A stretch of DNA of 21,301 nucleotides, taken from contig LSSN01005056.1 in the NCBI GenBank assembly GCA_001970855.1, positions 1 through 21,301 on the forward strand, given 5' to 3'. Under the pieces are notes generated by a model. The model had not been told where the DNA came from, ran no database searches, and saw only the letters and a program-made list of their open reading frames with translations. The translations under genes were made by a program, and so were the position numbers. Below are positions 4,340 to 21,301 of this stretch, in pieces; within the stretch, counting starts at the first letter, position 1; every line of letters begins with the position of its first letter. The DNA comes from Smittium culicis. Taxonomy: Eukaryota > Kickxellomycota > Harpellomycetes > Harpellales > Legeriomycetaceae.

Positions 4340-7300
4340 TTGATACTTTTCTACTCCTCGTATTATATTTATCAGACTTTTCTCATAGGTCTTGATTAAT
4401 TCTAACATTATTATTCAGAGAGGAGATGAATTAACTTAATAAAAATTTAAAATCGACCAGCTAAGACATTCGAAGAATTTAATATGAATCTATAATATGT
4501 ATCAAAGATAGAATATTTCGACTAAAATAAGTGAGAAAATAAATGACTAGCAGCTATACTGGCGTCTTTTGATAATTCACAACAAATTGCTCTCCCCTTG
4601 GTGATTGCGCTTAAAGGTTTCGGTGTATTACATCAGATGTTGAGTGGATATTTCGTGTAATATTATCAACTGATAGAGTCTTTTATGTATTAATTACACA
4701 TTTTACAATCCTATGAACAATCCAATTTATATTATTTGGTTGAGGTTGAGAAGGAAATATATACCGCTTTTTCTTTGTAGACAGCGTATTAAAATACTAG
4801 ATATATAATTGGATATATTTTCGATTAATTTTGGAGTAGTTTTTTAAGTTTCCTACCAGCTCGATTATATTTTGGATATAAAATGACTAAATGAAGAATT
4901 AATTGTATTTTATGGCCTTTTTCATCATACACTCTGTGAATTTCGCTGGCCTGTAGAAATCAGTTAGTACTCAGTAAAATTAACTTGGAAGACAATTTCA
5001 TAACGGTAATATCGGCTGTGGATCCTGTTTACTTGAAAATTTTTATTGCTGGCGATATTTCAATAATATATTCTGAATAACAGTTTAATATATGAATCAA
5101 TCTATGATTTTATGAATTCAGAAAGAATTGGGGAATTTTCAAGTTCTGAGGAGTTTGGAATTAATTTTTTCAGAGTATATTTTTAGGATTTAAATTATTC
5201 TTCTTTTTGTATTCCTAAATTATAGAAATCGACCAATTAGCCTATAATTTGCGCGGCTAAGATATTAATGTTCATCTCATTTGAGATTACCAGTCTAAAA
5301 AGAACTTTTTGACAGAGCTGTTTCCGATTCGACGCAGTAAACCTCAATCATTAATAAATATACATTCAACGGAGTAAGTACCGGTATCTTTTGATTTGAG
5401 AAAACTTTACTGACCCTCTATGTTGCCAAGATCAACCTATTGAATTTCGAGAGAGGAGAAATTCCGCTTTTTAGATCTGGAATAACCATGTGCCTCAATA
5501 ATATGGTTTCGGGATGACAGAATCATGAATTCAGAAGAATTGATAGTAAATATTCATTTAGATTTCATAAGAATTATTTAAAATTGTTCTTGTCCAAATT
5601 CTGGAATATTTGCAAGATCATTCTTCATCACGGGCAGCAAATAGTGCTGCTGAACTGAAGACAGTAATATGTAAGTACTTTATAGGCTAAAATCTTCATA
5701 TCTTCCAACCAGCTGAATTAGTATTTCACCTTGTTGTTTAGCTATTATGTAAAAGGATTCAAATAATGATGCCCGAGTTCTAATTTCGGGTATTTTAATG
5801 TATTTTTCAAAGATAATATTCGGTTTATGCAGCCAATATTATCAAAAAAATCTGCTTTATTATACATATTTAGAACATATGTGACTAGGACCCTGATATT
5901 TGTCTTCAAAAAGCGATTCTATATATGCAATTATATTAAATGCAGTTCTGTGGAAGAATTTCATTCAAAATTTTTTACATTGGAAAATTCTGTCGTTTTT
6001 TCTCAATTTAAATATGGCTGGGAGACTGAAAAAACCCCTCATTATGAGTGTTTACATTACTGGGAGAAGTTCGTTGGCGTTTAATTAAATCTTGGACCCA
6101 TATTTACTCGAAAATATAATACCTGTGAGAAAATGCGACTAATACTAAAGCTATGCCGTTGAATTACGTGAAAAAAAAATCCAATTAGCGAGTTTTGGGC
6201 GGGTGGGAGTGGTTGAGATGCCTATTATGATATCAGTTTGGTCATACAGAAAATTAGGCTCTATTTGGAAGGATTCGTCTGAATGATTGCGATAGAAAAT
6301 TATTAAACATCTCATTGAGTGATTATTGAACTCGAGAATTCGGCTGAAAATAAGGTGCCCCAGAATTAGAGCATCTGAATTTGATTGAAATTTTCCTGTG
6401 AATGGAGATAAAAATTAAAATTTAGTTTTTAATCATTCATTAGTCTTCTATACTCTCTTTGAAGGCCTCGTATCATAGATTAATAAAAATTTAGTGTAAA
6501 TTTATTGGTATTAATCACCATCCCCAGGTGAGGTAATCAAAGTAATGAAGAATTATTCAAAATATCTCCATTTGCTGAATCCTAGCACCTAAGCTTCTAG
6601 TATATAATTAAACTGTTACTTAGAAGCGCTAATTTAATATATCCGATAACTATAATTTCCTTTGGATTAGCTTTTTACTGATCTCTATCGAGCTCGAGTA
6701 TTTACTAATGATCGCATAATATTCGTTAATATCAGAGTAATCGCTGTCTATTAAAATTATAGCACGTTTAATCGTGATTTTCGAAAATTCTAGTAGATGA
6801 GGAGATGTTTTCTGCGAAAAATATAAACAAAATTGTGCTTTTTTGAGCTCTGAAGATAAAATGAACTCAGATGATCTTAGAATAGGATCATTCCGAGATA
6901 GAATTGAGAAATCCACCTTGAAGTTTTCCTTTTCGAAATATAGGTTCAGAGTGAGCAAGTATAGTACCATTATCCGATTCCAAGTAATCTACTGGATCGA
7001 AAATAGATAGCTGTAGTAGCCTGGGATACTCGGCTATACCTATTCGATAATACTCTTTGATAGATATAAAAACACTTCCTTCGATAAGGTATTCAAGCCT
7101 CCAAACTGAGCTTATTTTTGTATGGTTTTAGTACGTGTTACAAATGCGAATCTGAGTATTTTATTCATTATTATTGGAGCCCATTGACTGTCCCTCAACT
7201 TGGCCCATGAAAATTTGAAAACTGAAAGTTGAATTTTGAGCTCCTAATATGTAAATAATATTTCAAACTTTAAGGTGTAGCTCCTTGTGTATAAATTTGA

Positions 7301-11887: not shown

Positions 11888-14800
11888 TCTACCTATATCA
11901 AAATTTTCTTTGAAATAGCGAATAGTATTATTCATATTTAATAGCAAAGTAAAATTTTTGTTTTTTCTACGGATAGCTTATATTTTTTAAGGAAATTAGA
12001 AATTGCTATATTATTTTTGAATTAGTATTGTTGTTACTTTTATTATAAAAAAATTCTACCTCCGGGAATGGATCATAGGAATAAAAGAACAAAAATAATT
12101 TCATTTTATAAATTTTTTTAAACCTAAAAATAACTTATATTATCTCCAAAAAATAGCATCTACATCCTTATTAAAAGCATCTGAGTCAAAAAAACGTATA
12201 ACTTCAGAAAATATCTTTTAAAAGATTTTTAATTCATAATCTTACTAGTATCTTTTTGTATTTAGCAGTTTGATTTTTAAATAGATAAACCTGAAAATAA
12301 AAAAAGAAATAATTATAATTATTATCAAATAGAAATTTCATTGAATAGACAATTGATGTCGATCAAAAAAATCAGCTACTAATAATAATTATGATAAGTT
12401 ATCATTCTAGACATGAATTAAATGTATAAAGTTATTGATAAATCTGATAAAATAGTCAATAATCGCTAGATATTTCTAATCAAATACATTATTCAAGTTA
12501 AATGTATTTGAGATTTTTCTCATGGTAAGTTTTATTTTGGCTTAGATCTAAAGAGTAATAAGATATGCTAAAGAAAAAATGTATTAAAATTAAAATCATT
12601 TTTTATTTTCTCCGATATTTTATTTAGCATAAATAAAAGGTAAACATAAAACTAAAAATATATTTGAAAATTTAAGAAATATTATAATTTTTTTTTTACT
12701 GATTTATTACCGCCATTTAATAACTAAATACTCACTGGTAATTTTTTCAAGGAAAGTGAAAGCGTTTATCAAAAATGATTTTTTCCGAATTTTCTTGAGA
12801 TACTCTACTAGCTCGATACCCGTTAATAATTTTTTCAAGAGGTATATTTATTGTATTTTATAAAGAAATAATGATAAAGAAAACAGTAAGAAGTTACTAT
12901 TTCTAGGTCACATATCGATAAAATAATAAAGACAAGAAATAAGATAGAGTGCCTATGTCGTAGAGGATTCATTCCACGCACTATATTGTATCGAATCCAA
13001 TCAAAATTTTAAATCTCTGCTTTCTCTATTTTTTTTTATCAAGATCTCATATTTTATATATTGCGATAAATAAGAAAATTCCATAGATTTTATCACAAAG
13101 AAAAAAAATTCTTTGTGAGGATTTTATAAGGCAATCCTCAATATAACCAAGGCTTTATTATTTTATATACTATACTTTAGAAGAACTATTAGGGATTCAT
13201 TTTTTTTACATTAATTTATATCCATAATTTACGAATGAAATATATATTAATTGAAGAAATCAATGAAAAAATTGATAACCGGAAAATTTTTAGTGTAAAT
13301 AGTCGTGGATCTTGACTAAAAAAATGACTTGATTTAGGATAATATAAAAAATATATGGTTTCTAAAAAAAAAAATCATATAAAAAAACAACTAAATATTC
13401 AATAATAAAGAAACAGAGTTTAGCTATTTCTTTATTGTTAATTTTTTAATACAAATTTGAACCAAAAAAATACATAAATACAAGCTCTAGGTGGACATTA
13501 TCAATAATCTATGACACCTATATATATATTTATAATAATTTTATATTCTCTTATGGTATAAAATATAAATAAATTTGATGAATTGAAATTTTCTGAAAAT
13601 ATTTACTAATTTATAGAAAAAAAAACATAAAATCGCTGAAACATAATATTTGGAGGAAGTCTAAGAAATAAAAATAGATATCAACGACAATATAAAAATC
13701 TTTAATTTCCTCAAATTAATTAATCAGACACTATCTCATCCCTTTTATAGATACATTTAAATCAATTACGGTTCATTAAAAGATGTAAAAAATTTTTTTT
13801 TCCATTTTTTAATATTATACTTAAACCTTAATATAATCTGTAAATTGAATAACATCGGTGGTATAAGTATATTTATTCGTAGTAAACGCAATTTAATGTA
13901 ATTTATAGAAAAAAGAAATTTCTAGGAATTTTTTTAAAGGGATAAATATTTTTATAAAAGTCATATAAAAATTCTGAGTCAGACGAATTAAGAAAAAACA
14001 AACCCAACAAACTTTAGTGTATGCAATTAGAGAATTATCTTTAATTTGGTATTAATAATTATATTATTTTAATAATTCATCAACAATTTTCATATAAAAA
14101 AAGTACGTTTTGGAGGATACGCTTATAAAATAATATAATTCAGCATTTTATTTTATTAGCCATATCAAAATTAAACTTTGAGTTAAGAAAAACAAATTTA
14201 CTTATTATCACCATTAGTAAACTTTTAGTTTTTATAACATTTTTACGACTTTTATACAAAGTTGACAATATATTATATTTTTTAGATTATAGATAGTAAA
14301 CTTTCTTGAAAAAATATCTTGGAAATAATAGCCAAAATTTAATTAAACTCATCATTTTTTAGCTTTTTTATTGTGTGTATATAATTATTTTCAGAATACA
14401 TAGTATTTCAAGCTGTACAATGAATGGAAATTTTCATATTTAATGTTAAGTAATCGATAAAAAAAACTTGAAATTGTAAAGAAACTCTTTTTTAATGGCG
14501 TGTTTTTAATCACGGTATCGAGTGACTTTGAAAGTAACACGTTAAATAAAGTAAATCACATATAACTATAATCGACCTTATCGAGTTAAAATAAATTCTT
14601 TTTTGGTGTTTTTCTTGTATTTTAAAAAATAAAATAAAAAGCATAAAATAACTTAATAATTGTGGCTACGAAATAATATACTAATACAGACGCAGATAAT
14701 TCGAGCTTGAATTTAGAGATAAGAGTGATAGCTGGTATTGATCATAAAAACTAAATTTGAAACTAGTCAAAATTAATAGCTCTTGTTAGTATTAATTAAT

Positions 14801-16149
14801 CGAAAAATTAAAATTGTGTCTAAAAAATAAGAAAGGTAAAAAAATATAGTTAAAAGGTGGTAAGCTTATTGGATATATAAACTGATACACTAACTAAAAA
14901 TATAGCAAGTTGAAAGTAGTGAGTATAAATAAATTTTCCATACGGTTTTAATTTGTAAACACGAAATATTATATTTATCGATTTCTTCTCTTTAAGCTTT
15001 TTTGAAAATAAAAAACGAGAATTTCAAGTTGATAAATGATATTGAAAAGCTGTAAAAGTTATAGAGTAGCTAGAGAATTATTTTTTATTAAAATTCGCCT
15101 AGTTAAAAAACAGCTTGGAATGAAAGGGGCGAATGTAGATGAAAAAATTAAGAATTTGAATTGACAAATAGATTGTTTGTTTTTTTTTTCCTATAAAGAA
15201 AGGATGTGAGATCTGGTAAACAATTGTTTTAAGCGAAAGGAAGTTAATTTTTTCATTATAAGGTTATAATTTTTTTATAGTCCAAAAAACCCTTTCATTG
15301 TTTGGTATTTCGATAACAATTAAAAAAATCTGTAAACATTTGGAAAAAGGAAAAATGGCGCATTTACCTTGAACAATGAAATTTTAAATAGAGTAAATGC
15401 TAAATGCTATTCTTCATCCCGACTTATCAAATCGAAGTATTTTATTGGCTTATTAATAGTAAAACCTACACCCTGATTTTCCCCTCCCGCTATTTACAGC
15501 CAGATAAAATTTAATAGATTGATAGTTGCATTTCTGTTGTAATAGCTGTTCAACGATCTATGTGTTTATAACGAGCCATTAATGAGTAAAATCTCATTAT
15601 AAAATAACATTCGAGTTTAAAGGTATTGGTATAAAATAATTGAAAAAATTCAATTTATTGATATAGTCTACTCTCGAAAACAGCTTCTACTAATTTATTA
15701 TTCTTTGCGGAAATATGGCTGTATTCAAGTCATAAAATTTTAGTGTACGTCGTATATAGAATAAATAATAAAAAATTACCATAATGACTTTGATAAATTA
15801 TGTATTTGTTATCAAAGTTTTTTTTTTTCTCATTCAAAAGTAAGCACATAAATTATATTGGGTTCATCAATAGCTAGTTTCTAGAAGGATATAAATGTGC
15901 ATCTTGTAATATTATAAAAAATATATTCAACGAGAATTTTTTCGAAGATTTTGTGTATCAGATTAAAACTTTTAAATACTTTTAGCTTTGTGTGCAGTAA
16001 AAATGCGATGGAATGAAAAAGATAAAAAATAAAGCGTTGAATAGTAGGAAAAAATACAATGTTTGAACATAAAAATATATCTTTCATCTGAATATTTGAT
16101 TATTTGAAATATTGCAGTGTGTAAATAACGGTTAAAAATTTCATAAAAT
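11888..16149. other. Long AT-rich stretch, no genes seen
   Basis: More than 4 kb with every frame closed frequently. The only ordered element noted is a perfect 10-bp hairpin (TCACAAAGAA, six-base A loop, TTCTTTGTGA) at 13093-13118. A 68-codon minus-strand open frame (15881-16087) encodes a Phe/Ile-rich low-complexity product and is taken as chance. Confidence 0.62.
13093..13118. repeat. Perfect 10-bp hairpin
   Basis: Stems at 13093-13102 and 13109-13118 are fully complementary with an A6 loop. No gene lies next to it, so no role can be assigned. Confidence 0.6.
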
Positions 16150-16292
16150 TATTGGTTGTTCGAAAAATGTGGCTTATAGATCAAAGATATATAAGGAAAT
16201 GTATTTATTTGGTAATTATAATTAATGCCGGCGTATAAATATTATTCAACAATCAATTAATATCACTGAGTATTGGTTTGAAAAAAAACTAT

Positions 16293-16430
16293 AATTACAA
16301 TTACAATTACAATTACAATTACAATTACAATTACAATTACAATTACAATTACAATTACAATTACAATTACAATTACAATTACAATTACAATTACAATTAC
16401 AATTATAATTATAATTATAATTATAATTAT
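16293..16430 (+). repeat. Hexanucleotide microsatellite (AATTAC)18(AATTAT)5
   Basis: Eighteen uninterrupted AATTAC units (16293-16400) are followed by five AATTAT units (16401-16430), then AATCAT. The C-to-T variant is confined to one end, so it spread by slippage after arising once. In one plus frame the tract spells alternating Asn-Tyr, producing an apparent 68-codon frame that is not a gene. Confidence 0.98.
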
Positions 16431-16433
16431 AAT

Positions 16434-17907
16434 CATTTTTTCAATTTCAATAAAAGGAGGGGTAGTTCAATTGTGCCATTTTAGCGGATAGCTGATAGAT
16501 CTATTGTAAAATTATATTTTACTGATACAATTTTACTTTTAATAAATATCGTATATTATTATATAACGAACGATGTTATTTATGGTATAGTGCTTTGCTA
16601 ATAATAAATTCACAACATGGATATACCAAATCCGATAAAGTTTATTAATATGCCAAGAATAATGATAAATTTGGATATTTATTTCTTGGGACTAGTATGA
16701 TTAGAATATTAAAATTAACTGCTTATTTGGTTGTTTTTTTTAGCTGGTTGATTTTAATAAAGGAAAGAATATAATTTGGAACTATTTTCTAAATAAATAA
16801 AATTAAAAAAAAGAAAAAAAAGTAGGTGATAGAAATCGTATACTTTTATGAAAGCGTTTATTGAATTATCTTGTAAAATTACCCTTACTGAACTAAACAT
16901 TTAGTGGATGATAGTAATATATGCTATTTTTAGTATAAAATTTTCATGATAAAAAACGCCTCGTCATCCAGAATCAAAATAATTTTGATTTGGTTGAAGC
17001 AAGTAATAATCAAGTGATATTAATTATAAAAAGTTCTGGAAAACAATAAAAAAATAAAAGTGATTATTCAAAAAAAAAAAAATTACGGATTATGATGTAA
17101 ATATTGCAATTTAAGAGGCAAGATTTTAAAGAAATAATATATACTTTTTATGTTTATTAATGAATATCTTCATTTATCTAAGCTGGCTTGGATCTCAAAA
17201 CCAAGAATGATATTGTTAACATAACAAAGAACTTAAATGACTGCAATAAAAAAATAATGATAATTGAAATAATTAATTAGATCGATTGATCGCAGAAATC
17301 CACGATTAAAAACGTTCTTGAGTTAAATAAATATATAATTAAAATCTGGATATGAATAAATGCGCTTATTTATCGGCAAATAATATAAAAAGTTATAAAT
17401 AACATCTTTAATATAATTAAAAAAAATTATTGAATAAAGGGAATATAAGGTAAATCAAAACAGCTAGCTGTAGTAAAGTCAGAAATATGTTTTTATAAAA
17501 GACAGTATAAATATAGGCTCAAAAGAAATTCCAATGAAAATTTGAAAATCTAAATAAATTTAATTCCTAGAATTTTATAGTTAACATTATATATCTATAG
17601 CACTCTCTAAAATATTGAGGCAGCTGGAAAATAATTGAAGTATACCTTATATTATATACTATATAGAGTTAATATTAAATATATCTTCATGAATTTATTA
17701 TATGGCAAAAGAAATTTTGCGAGCTTTATTTTATTATAACATTTAAAAGCTGTAAAGCTATTTAGTCACTATACTAATTTAAAAAAAATCTTAGAACCCT
17801 TTTTATATAAATACACTATCATATTTACAACTGACATATACAATGATAAAATTTTAATTATAAAACATATCATTAACATTATTATTTTCAAACACTTCAA
17901 AAAAATG
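16434..17907. other. AT-rich stretch, no genes seen
   Basis: All frames are closed. It forms the interior of the possible TIR element and the left approach to the tandem array. Confidence 0.6.
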
Positions 17908-20900
17908 TAAATTTTTTGGACAACCAATAATACATAAATAAAATCAAAACTGTTATAGTTTCGGGAATAAAATAAAAATTTTTTCTACAAATAATCAATA
18001 CTATACATGCTGAATCGATGGATACTCCAGAAAAGATGCGCTGAGAACCTCATAAGTATCATTCCAATTTGTAAGAATTTTTACAATTGACTAACAATGA
18101 TTATAATTGATATAATCATGATCACCATATAGATCCCAGTCGCCCAACCAGCCAGGTCAGACGAGGTAAGTACCCATAAGATAATATATATTTCATCACT
18201 TTAATAATTATAATTTCGGGCCCGAAATTAATTATTTAGTCACTTACATCCACACTCGTACTAATATAAACTCCAGCTTTATCAGATCACGCACTCCGAA
18301 CAACCTGTAAGTATCATTCCAATTTCTAAGAGTATATTCTAGTTTTTAGCGATGGATTTAATGTTTATTAATTTTAGATCCTGGAATAGGCCCTGTCTAT
18401 CCGATCAGCCATCTTGACGAGGAAAGTGCAGATCATTTATAACTTATGTAAAATATTTAACTATGATAATTTCGGGATCGAAATATCATGCTTTGATCTT
18501 TTATACAAAAATTTACTATCCAAAACACCAAAAACACCAAAAAATCTATGACAGCTACGCTGATAACCCCGTAATTATTATTCCAATATATTAGTATTTT
18601 TACCGTTTACTAAGTATGTATAAATATTAAATATACCTTAGATGATAGTGCAGATCCCTTCAACTCGTGCAGTCAGGCCAGTCATGGTAAGTGCCGTTAT
18701 TTATCTAATATTTCTCATCTATAGCTAATTTAATTTCGGGCCCGAAATTTTATACTTTGAGAATTATATACACAAATTTACTAGCTGGATCGTGAATAGC
18801 CCCAACACAACCACGCTGATCATCCCGTAAGATTCATTCCAATTTATTAGTAAATTTATAGTTCGCTAAAAATGAATTTATTGTAATATCATCTAGATCA
18901 CAGCACAAATCTCATCCACCCGAAATGCAAGATCAGACAAGGTAAGCGCCGTTTTTTTCGCCTATATATCAAATTGTAATCAATTTTAATTTCAGGTCCG
19001 ATATTAAAAATTTACCGCTATTAAACACAAATGATCCGGCCTAAACGACGAAAAATTTAGGTCAGCCAAGTTGCTAATCTTGTAAATATCATTCCATTTT
19101 AAATGTATATATACCGTCCACTAACTAATTATAAAATTTAATTTAATCTTAGATCCCAGCATAGTTCCCTAAAACCAGATCAGTCAAACCAGTCAAGGTA
19201 AGTGTCATTTTTTATTTCATACATCTTTGCTATAAATATTTTAATTTCGGGCCCGAAATTATATACTTTGAGACTTATATACAAATTTTCACTAGACGAA
19301 ACGCTAAAAGCATTTGAAACACTAGCCGATAATCTCGTAAGTATCGTTCCAATATATTAGTATTTTTACTGTAAACTAACCTTGAATTTATTGTAATTTC
19401 ATCTAGATCCCAGCATAGATAACATCCGTCCGAAATGCATGACATACAGGTAAGTTCCCGTTAAATTACTTATATATATCCTCTTAGAAATATATAATTT
19501 CGGGCCCGAAATTTTATACTTTGAGTCTTATATACAAAATTTACTAGTCGATACGCCAAAAATTCCAAACAGCCACGCCGATAATCTCGTAAGTATCATT
19601 CCAATTTTTAAGTATCTTTTCTAGTTCTAACTATGAAATTACTGTTTTATAATCTTAGATCCCAGCATAGGCCCCAGCTACCTGATCAGCCAGACCAGAC
19701 AAGCTAAGTGCCGTTATTTATTTCACATTTTTCATCTATAGCTAATTAAATTTCGGGCCCGAAATTATATTTTTTGCCACATATATTCACAAGTTCAGTA
19801 GCGTAAATGCCGAAAACTCCAAGATTGCCACTCTGATAATCTTGTAAGTATCATTCCAATATACTAGTATTTTTGCCGTTAACTAACTATTTATTAACTT
19901 TAATTTAATCTTAGATCCCAGCAAAGGCCTCTAACACTTGAACTTCAGGCCATTCAAGGTAAGTGCCGTTTATTTTATCTACAAATCTACTCTTAGTCAA
20001 TTTTAATTTCGGGCCCGAAATTTTACACTTTGATCTTATATTCACAATTTCAGTAGCGTAAACGCCTAAAACTCCTGAGCACCTCGCCGATAATCTTGTA
20101 AGTATCATTCCAATATAATAGTATTTTTGCCGTTAACTAACTATGTATTATCTTTAATTTAATCTTAGATCCCAGCAAAGACCTCTAACATTTGAACAGT
20201 CAGGCAATTCAAGGTAAGTGCCGTTTATTTTATCTACAAATCTACTCTTTTTCAAATTTAATTTCGGGCCCGAAATTATATATTTTACCACTTATTTTCA
20301 CAATTACATAAGCAAAAACGCCGAAAAATCCTGAAACCAGCGCCGATAATCTCGTAAGTATCATTCCAAACAAATAGTATTTTTACCTTTTTTTAACTAG
20401 GAATAAATTTTAATTGTATCTTAGATCCCAGCATATATACCTATCTCATTAGCAGCCGGGCAAGTAAAAGTAAGTGCCGTAATTTATCTCACACTTATCA
20501 TCTATATCTAATTTAATTTTGGGCCCGAAATTATATATTTTGATCTAATATATAATATTATTCTAGCCCAAACATCGAAAGCTAATAAAAAGCAACGCCG
20601 CATAAGTCGTAAGCATCATTCCAATATTCAAATATTTATACCGTTAACTAACTATATATCCATTTTTGTTTTTTTAGATCCCAGAATAAACCTCTGCAAA
20701 CCGAACAGTCAGGTCAGTCAAGGTAAGCGATAATACTTATTTCACAATTCTTCTCTATAACTAATTTAATTTCGGGCCCGAAATTATAAATTTTGATCTA
20801 ATATACAATATTTTTCTATCCCAAACACCGAAAGCTCATAATTAGCAACACCGTATAAGTCGTAAGTATCATTCCAATATTCAAATATTTATACCGTTAA

Positions 20901-20975
20901 CTAACTATATATCCATTTTTGTTTTTTTAGATCCCAGAATAAACCTCTGCAAACCGAACAGTCAGGTCAGTCAAG

Positions 20976-21072
20976 GTAAGCGATAATACTTATTTCACAA
21001 TTCTTCTCTATAACTAATTTAATTTCGGGCCCGAAATTATAAATTTTGATCTAATATACAATATTTTACTAT
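20976..21072 (+). other. Representative B-to-A intron-like spacer carrying the palindrome (97 nt)
   Basis: It starts GTAAGCGATA, carries the palindrome at 21021-21038, and ends TTTACTAT where other units have TTTACTAG or TTTCAG. The acceptor AG is therefore missing in this and the previous unit. Other units give 97-99 nt for this spacer. Confidence 0.55.
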
Positions 21073-21114
21073 CCCAAACACCGAAAGCTCATAATTAGCA
21101 ACGCCGTATAAGTC

Positions 21115-21183
21115 GTAAGTATCATTCCAATATTCAAATATTTATACCGTTAACTAACTATATATCCATTTTTGTTTTTTTAG
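21115..21183 (+). other. Representative A-to-B intron-like spacer (69 nt)
   Basis: It starts GTAAGTATCATTCC, contains TTAACTAACTAT about 25-30 bases before the end (a good match to the UACUAAC branch-point type), then a T-rich tract, and ends TTTTTTTAG. The equivalent spacers of the other units are 69-71 nt, apart from 80 nt in the first, and most keep an ACTAAC-like motif. This combination of donor, branch point, tract and acceptor at fixed distances is what makes splicing the leading explanation. Confidence 0.65.
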
Positions 21184-21301
21184 ATCCCAGTATAGACCCC
21201 TGCTATTCGAGTTTTCAGGAAAGCCAAGGTAAGTGCCGTTTACTTAATTTAAATATCTACTCAATGTCAATTTTAATTTCGGGCCCGAAATTATATTTTT
21301 T

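Follow-up and report, generated by a model that had tools for sequence, protein, structure and literature searches.

A tandem array of predicted two-micro-exon cassettes, probably non-coding, in the insect-gut fungus Smittium culicis

Can a tandem repeat be a spliced gene and, if so, does it encode a protein or an RNA? This question is raised by one end of a contig of Smittium culicis, an insect-gut fungus belonging to the Harpellales, an early-diverging fungal lineage. The window, i.e. the whole stretch of DNA that was analysed (21,301 nucleotides), is contig C2100 of an assembly of 56.3 Mb and 2,529 contigs. This assembly is smaller than those published for the species, for which the excerpted text of PMC5954228 gives 71 and 77 Mb, 29% GC and 0.45-0.68% of SNP sites, the fungus being thought to be diploid.

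Extent and history of the array

The initial annotation described tandem units of about 255 bp with a complete splice grammar in every one of them. The tandem organisation is borne out: the tandem-repeat finder TRF recovers a 253-bp unit in 10.8 copies (18,553-21,301) and, by extending this range with a profile and with cuts made by hand from 18,052, we delimited 13 units of 253-255 bp after a part-unit that starts at 17,949; the array runs as far as the contig end (21,301). The regularity was overstated, since units 1-3 are degenerate and signals are lost here and there.

A paralogous array of nine units, complete at both ends, is located on contig C504 (about 12,660-15,060), and no third copy was found in the 56-Mb assembly. 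The units of the window are labelled W1-W13 and those of C504 C1-C9, i.e. 22 units in total. They are 70-75% alike in most comparisons, corresponding to a divergence of about 25-30%. On the tree of the 22 units, cross-contig pairs (W1-C1, W7-C2, W8-C3, W11/12-C7 and W13-C8) follow a shared array order. This common order indicates that the array is older than the duplication of the locus and that it has not been homogenised, except for recent copies such as W11 and W12, which are near-identical. C504 and C2100 are about 90% identical beside the array and 72-76% farther away. Since this divergence is far above the published SNP rate, the two loci are either paralogues or very old alleles. The features of the array in the window, with predicted exons, are as follows.

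17949-18051, + strand: lead part-unit, with half a palindrome and an exon-B-like stretch; the donor position reads ATAAGT on both contigs
18052-18826, + strand: units 1-3, degenerate; exon A at 18133-18165, 18378-18421 and 18642-18686; unit 1 lacks the GT of donor 1, unit 2 lacks the GT of donor 2 and CTAAC
18827-19588, + strand: units 4-6; exon A at 18897-18941, 19153-19197 and 19407-19449; exon B at 19296-19336 (unit 5) and 19548-19588 (unit 6), unit 4 having no AG at that place
19589-20608, + strand: units 7-10; exon A at 19659-19703, 19915-19958, 20169-20213 and 20425-20469; exon B at 19802-19843, 20057-20097, 20313-20353 and 20567-20608; donor 2 position of unit 7 reads CT
20609-21301, + strand: units 11-13; exon A at 20678-20722, 20931-20975 and 21184-21228; units 11 and 12 have lost the exon-B acceptor; unit 13 truncated by the contig end
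20862-20877, + strand: example of the 16-nt donor element GTAAGTATCATTCCAA, exact in 13 of the 22 units
20768-20785, no strand assigned: example of the palindrome AATTTCGGGCCCGAAATT in intron 2; the others start at 18212, 18468, 18732, 18988, 19243, 19496, 19749, 20005, 20260, 20515, 21021 and 21275, with imperfect copies in units 2, 4 and 10

Splice signals and palindrome

In each unit, the order is the donor element GTAAGTATCATTCCAA, a stretch of variable sequence, CTAAC, a spacer (26-28 nt in 18 of 22 units), TTAG and exon A. Then come GTAAG, about 47 nt, the palindrome AATTTCGGGCCCGAAATT, about 35 nt, AG (14 of 21 units), exon B and the donor of the next unit. Donor 1 has its GT in 20 of the 22 units (GTAAGY in 17), both exceptions being the first unit of a contig, and acceptor 1 has its AG in 21. 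The branch position reads YTAAC in 18 units, and the GT of donor 2 is found in 19 units, with a GC in one more. For exon B, 14 of 21 units have an AG where the alignment places the acceptor. Predicted intron 1 measures 69-71 nt in most units and predicted intron 2 about 97 nt; the distance from the branch site to exon A, 26-28 nt in 18 units, reaches 35-48 nt in the other four.

The modules of about 42 and 45 nt at fixed distances that had been reported hold in part. Exon A is 45 nt long in 15 of 22 units, and 44 (three units), 43, 36 or 33 nt (two units) in the others. Exon B is 42 nt long in seven units and 41 nt in seven others, and its acceptor is not fixed. By contrast, the claim of directional signals kept in register holds: these signals are conserved and agree in geometry with three actin introns found in the same genome. 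In the latter, the donor is GTAAGC or GTAAGT, a CTAAC or CTGAC precedes the exon by 24-26 nt and TAG follows. Predicted intron 1 of the array matches U2-type spliceosomal introns of the host by its GT, YTRAY branch, AG and distance. Furthermore, the window contains six GTAAG..CTAA..TTAG triplets, all inside the array and all on the + strand, for 0.82 expected, a number reached by none of 100 shuffles. It also contains 30 GTAAGY motifs for 12 expected; 21 of them lie in the array, 20 of these on the + strand. The genome carries 13 exact copies of GTAAGTATCATTCCAA, all in the two arrays and none elsewhere. Two copies with one mismatch, on C399 and C1908, were rejected as relatives, the surrounding sequence being unrelated.

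Exon B ends with CTC and not CAG, and the adjoining donor has AT at +7 and +8, which, by base-pairing rules, would presumably extend the pairing with U1. From the splice signals as a whole, we infer that the introns of the array would be spliced. Since some signals are lost (donor 1 and donor 2 in 2/22 units each, acceptor 1 in 1/22, YTAAC in 4/22 and acceptor 2 in 7/21), the array may be dead in part. An acceptor AG in two thirds of the units only (14/21) makes it probable that exon B is optional.

Conservation was measured as parsimony steps per column on the tree of the 22 units, using the 254 of 287 columns with at least 18 rows each; p values come from random column sets, a null that ignores dependence among neighbouring columns. 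For an array mean of 2.91 changes per column, the donor-1 element shows 0.75 steps across its 16 columns, with 0.83 for the six donor bases (p 0.005) and 0.70 for the ten bases that follow (p 0.0001). Donor 2 shows 0.80 (p 0.009) and the palindrome 0.72, a value as low being obtained in none of 20,000 random column sets. Acceptor 1 is represented by the two columns of its AG, which show 0.5 and are not significant alone (p 0.06). Exon A (3.16 steps per column) and exon B (4.0) evolve no slower than the introns. Hence, the splice signals of intron 1 (donor, branch site and acceptor), donor 2 and the palindrome are conserved while the letters of the exons drift. As the exons do not evolve slowly, a sequence-specific function of the RNA of the array is not supported.

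The 18-bp palindrome, the array on C504 and the conserved leader upstream had been missed by the initial annotation. The palindrome is exact in 16 of the 22 units, and its 14-bp core has 16 copies in the genome, all within the two arrays. In the minimum-energy fold of intron 2, it is predicted to form a 7-bp hairpin in 19 of 22 units; palindrome copies can also pair with one another, with a computed dimer energy of -28.7 kcal. The variants found in W10, C3 and C7 leave G-U pairs, which is a weak hint of a function in RNA rather than in DNA.

Exon composition and coding potential

The predicted exons have an A+C content of 0.655 versus 0.484 for the introns in 21 of the 22 units (all but W13, truncated by the end of the contig). 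Forty of the 42 exons exceed every intron in A+C, the exceptions being exon A of units 2 and 3, and the break in composition coincides with the predicted exon borders. C accounts for 32% of exon A, 30% of exon B and 12-16% of the introns. Since two coding sequences of the same genome have an A+C content of 0.49-0.50, the exons of the array are unlike ordinary coding exons. When joined, they fold weakly: their first 300 nt (units 2, 3 and 13 being left out of the window set) reach about -40 kcal versus about -73 for a strand-symmetric sequence of the same GC content. Plain shuffles of the joined exons fold alike (-46.8 and -38.9), so that composition alone explains this weak folding.

The initial annotation proposed a coding micro-exon gene, with a non-coding RNA made of dozens of tiny exons as the alternative. 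The latter fits better, as no test of coding gave a significant result. Nineteen of the 22 units keep one frame of exon A open, a number with p about 0.2 in column shuffles. Among the 18 in-frame units, variation is highest at the third positions of this frame (minor-allele frequency of 0.27 versus 0.20 and 0.19). The synonymous fraction amounts to 0.33 for 0.25 expected (p about 0.11). The in-frame test used these 18 units (without W2, W6, W8 and C3), and the full 22 were also run. The length of exon A is a multiple of three in 18 of 22 units, and that of exon B in the seven 42-nt copies and not in the seven 41-nt ones; lengths are thus not kept in threes. Exon B gave no coding signal in column-shuffle tests and is closed in most units. 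With all exons A and B joined, the spliced ORFs (77 and 70 aa) are no longer than chance (shuffle means of 90 and 84 aa), and a dynamic programme covering eight splicing models found no excess of ORF length (p 0.16-0.96). A protein search with 189 residues of exon-A translations yielded 75 candidates and no match at E<=1, and Pfam gave no significant match. On C504, the frame passes by visual reading from the last exon B to the last exon and runs 17 codons up to a TAA, which may be due to chance. Altogether, judging from these tests, the array is unlikely to encode a protein, exon A showing a weak lean only.

Known RNA families were also searched. Rfam 15 yielded no hit in the window when the gathering score was applied and, at E<=1, no hit either in positions 14,500-21,301 or in loci L028, L030, L034, L037, L048 and L049; on the 3' side of C504, mir-7386 appeared at E 3.7 only, i.e. 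at chance level. Small-RNA, snRNA and telomerase-RNA ideas were dropped as there was no match of any kind. A structured 3' exon on C504 (L011:131-241) was rejected: its stability does not exceed that of shuffles (z -1.0), and a dispersed repeat makes up its 3' part. This repeat (L011:171-264, in the presumed last exon, about 84-94 bp) has at least 39 further copies of 80-87% identity, 39 of 146 candidates having been scored. No first exon, promoter or poly(A) site of the array was identified.

The surrounding loci and the nature of the array

Upstream of the array, the window carries a leader that is shared with C504 and includes a block found on other contigs. These features and the bodies found downstream of the block on other contigs are located as follows.

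14679-17948, + strand: leader, homologous to C504:9,611-12,680
15296-15468, + strand: conserved block of about 170 bp with inverted ATTGTT/AACAAT pairs, present on 12 other contigs at 70-75% identity or more
C1681, about 15.0-31.2 kb (L033, L045, L046); C272 (L039/L047); C1063, from about 7,450 (L036): G-depleted tract
C593:43,431-44,341 (L048:1432-2342), to the contig end: second array, with a 292-bp unit, 5.2 kb downstream of the block

The leader is about 72-76% identical to that of C504, rising to about 90% beside the array, and its longest ORF (81 aa) lies within a hexamer microsatellite. An (AATTAC)n microsatellite is located in the leader at 16293-16433 of the window and is absent from that of C504. 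Within the most conserved part of the leader, GCAAAAGAAATTTTGC (17698-17722 of the window) is a perfect hairpin whose loop reads GAAA, and C504 has the identical sequence when compared by eye. Elsewhere in the window, an ORF fragment at 3-320 is 58% identical over 41% to an S. culicis protein and has weak relatives on C504 and C1681; we take it to be reminiscent of a tyrosine recombinase, and it has no Pfam match. On the - strand, positions 6653-6988 have a weak Pfam match to the PBECR4 nuclease (E 0.016, below the cut-off).

The block is found on 13 contigs: C2100, C504, C1681/C272, C2028/C130, C2364, C1063, C842, C1271, C1030 and C2437/C593, C1437 not being counted as its match lies outside the block only. 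Several of these contigs are near-identical pairs (for instance, C1681 and C272 are 99.8% identical across 13 kb), so that the distinct block loci are fewer than 13. The ATTGTT/AACAAT pairs presumably resemble HMG-box binding sites, and the block could be a promoter. The region of the body is covered on six of the 13 contigs (C2100, C504, C593, C1681, C272 and C1063), six others ending sooner; on C842, the 5.2 kb downstream of the block showed no tandem array and no skewed tract. On C2100 and C504, the array starts about 2.3-2.5 kb downstream of the block.

On C1681, C272 and C1063, a G-depleted, A+C-rich tract is found about 5.0-5.3 kb downstream of the block. The tract of C1681, complete over about 16 kb, has one strand with 3-7% G, 22-32% C and an A+C content of about 0.67, and contains few repeats. 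Its 16 kb include 848 G and two GTAAG, the number expected from composition. A 300-nt segment of such a tract folds at -4.6 kcal versus -65 for a strand-symmetric sequence. Up to the tract, C1681 and C1063 share 83-90% identity in their leaders, but the tracts themselves have no blastn match (about 2.2 kb of that of C1063 compared). The array of C593 continues on C648 (L052, reverse strand). Its introns have the form GTAAGTACC..ATACTAACTG..TTTAG (GTAAGT..CTAAC..TAG, 61 nt), and a second intron-like stretch has no clear GT donor. A relationship with the array of the window was rejected (best nhmmer E 3.4, alignment score p 0.39), splice signals alone being common. The exons of the C593 array are not A+C-rich (about 0.50-0.52), which counts against one composition rule for all bodies.

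Tentatively, and with more doubt than confidence, these loci may be viewed as an S. culicis family whose members are long non-coding loci. In each, a control block that is conserved and a leader would be followed by an exchangeable body, the bodies sharing no sequence: either a spliced micro-exon array, of which there would be two unrelated kinds or more, or a tract of about 16 kb nearly without G. The array of the window and the G-poor tracts would keep a character of their RNA, A+C-rich and nearly unfoldable, and not its letters; cassettes would be one way to build such a body.

As for the array itself, we lean, by a modest degree, towards a transcription unit of the + strand, made of a tandemly duplicated two-micro-exon cassette, spliced and probably non-coding. 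The spliceosome would remove intron 1 regularly, and intron 2, its middle folded as a hairpin, less regularly, which would make exon B optional. The product would be a long, poorly structured A+C-rich RNA consisting of A and A-B units. This RNA would probably be a repetitive single-stranded platform for C/A-binding proteins, or matter through its splicing, rather than serve as a message. A multivalent, poorly folded C/A-rich binding platform is our leading guess; CA-rich sequence can bind hnRNP L, according to the excerpted text of PMC3751371. Unequal exchange would have multiplied the cassette, and the duplication of the locus itself would have come later.

Other readings can be weighed against this one. 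The array could be a protein-coding micro-exon gene, alive or decaying, in which exon A (1+42+2 nt, phase 2) codes for a repeated S-Q-x-x-P and exons are skipped in combination. The open frame of exon A, its variable third positions, its synonymous fraction and the last exon of C504, readable in phase, speak for it. However, the exon-A figures are not significant, exon B is closed in most units and 41 nt long in half of its 14 copies, the ORFs are no longer than those of shuffles and neither a database protein nor Pfam matches, so that we consider this reading rather improbable. We give still less weight to the idea that a gene fragment with two introns gave rise to a tandem repeat of low turnover, untranscribed today. 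Such a repeat would account for the degenerate units 1-3, for the scattered losses of signals and for exons that evolve as fast as introns; but the signals and the palindrome change 3-4 times less than the rest despite the 25-30% divergence of the units, and 40 of 42 exons keep their contrast in composition with the introns.

In a further reading, the array would be part of a family of structural loci of the chromosome, centromere-like or of another sort. This would agree with ORF-poor, strand-asymmetric long bodies at which contigs break, with a block present on 13 contigs with few ORFs nearby and with the G-depleted tract of about 16 kb on C1681. As it leaves unexplained both the splice signals in register and a strand asymmetry that follows the exon borders, it appears very improbable. 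Most improbable of all is an ordinary satellite with splice-like motifs arisen by chance. Such a satellite would be tandem, non-coding and of no known family, as the array is, but only two arrays were found and not megabases of the same monomer, their units are not homogenised, the triplets in register exceed those of shuffles and the GT and AG positions do not decay randomly.

The closest known architecture appears to be that of the W repeats (IR1) of Epstein-Barr virus. As described in the excerpted text of PMC3751371, each repeat has exons W1 (66 nt) and W2 (132 nt) and introns of 81 and 2,791 nt, and the repeats, described as identical, encode EBNA-LP. On the basis of this excerpt, both systems have two short exons per tandem unit, one short and one longer intron, and structured or conserved intronic elements. 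Unlike the viral repeats, which are identical and protein-coding and for which serial splicing was shown, the fungal units differ by about 25-30%, have shorter exons, keep no frame and would be spliced according to their signals. Two exons per repeat, as in the W cassette, are predicted in 14 of 21 units, where both acceptors are present; one protein running across all repeats was not found when spliced ORFs were compared with shuffles.

Schistosome micro-exon genes (MEGs) have many very short exons that are coding and symmetric (multiples of three). The likeness to them is in exon size only, the predicted exons of the array being under about 50 nt (33-45 nt for A, 41-42 nt for B); unlike in MEGs, their lengths are not kept in threes and no reading frame is longer than chance. 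In Xist-type long non-coding RNAs, tandem repeats lie within exons. The array resembles them in being repetitive, probably non-coding and in keeping the composition of its exons rather than their sequence, whereas each S. culicis repeat carries its own introns. Among the literature matches listed, none describes a tandem micro-exon array or a G-depleted locus family in Harpellales, which does not prove that none is in print.

The S. culicis array can be read as a tandem spliced cassette and, with moderate confidence, as non-coding. If it is transcribed, it would yield a spliced RNA born from the repeated duplication of a two-exon cassette, with selection acting on the splice signals and not on the sequence of the exons. 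Splicing or the bulk composition of an RNA thereby becomes testable as the selected trait of a long non-coding RNA. Moreover, the putative family with its block, leader and body makes several loci of one genome available for comparison.
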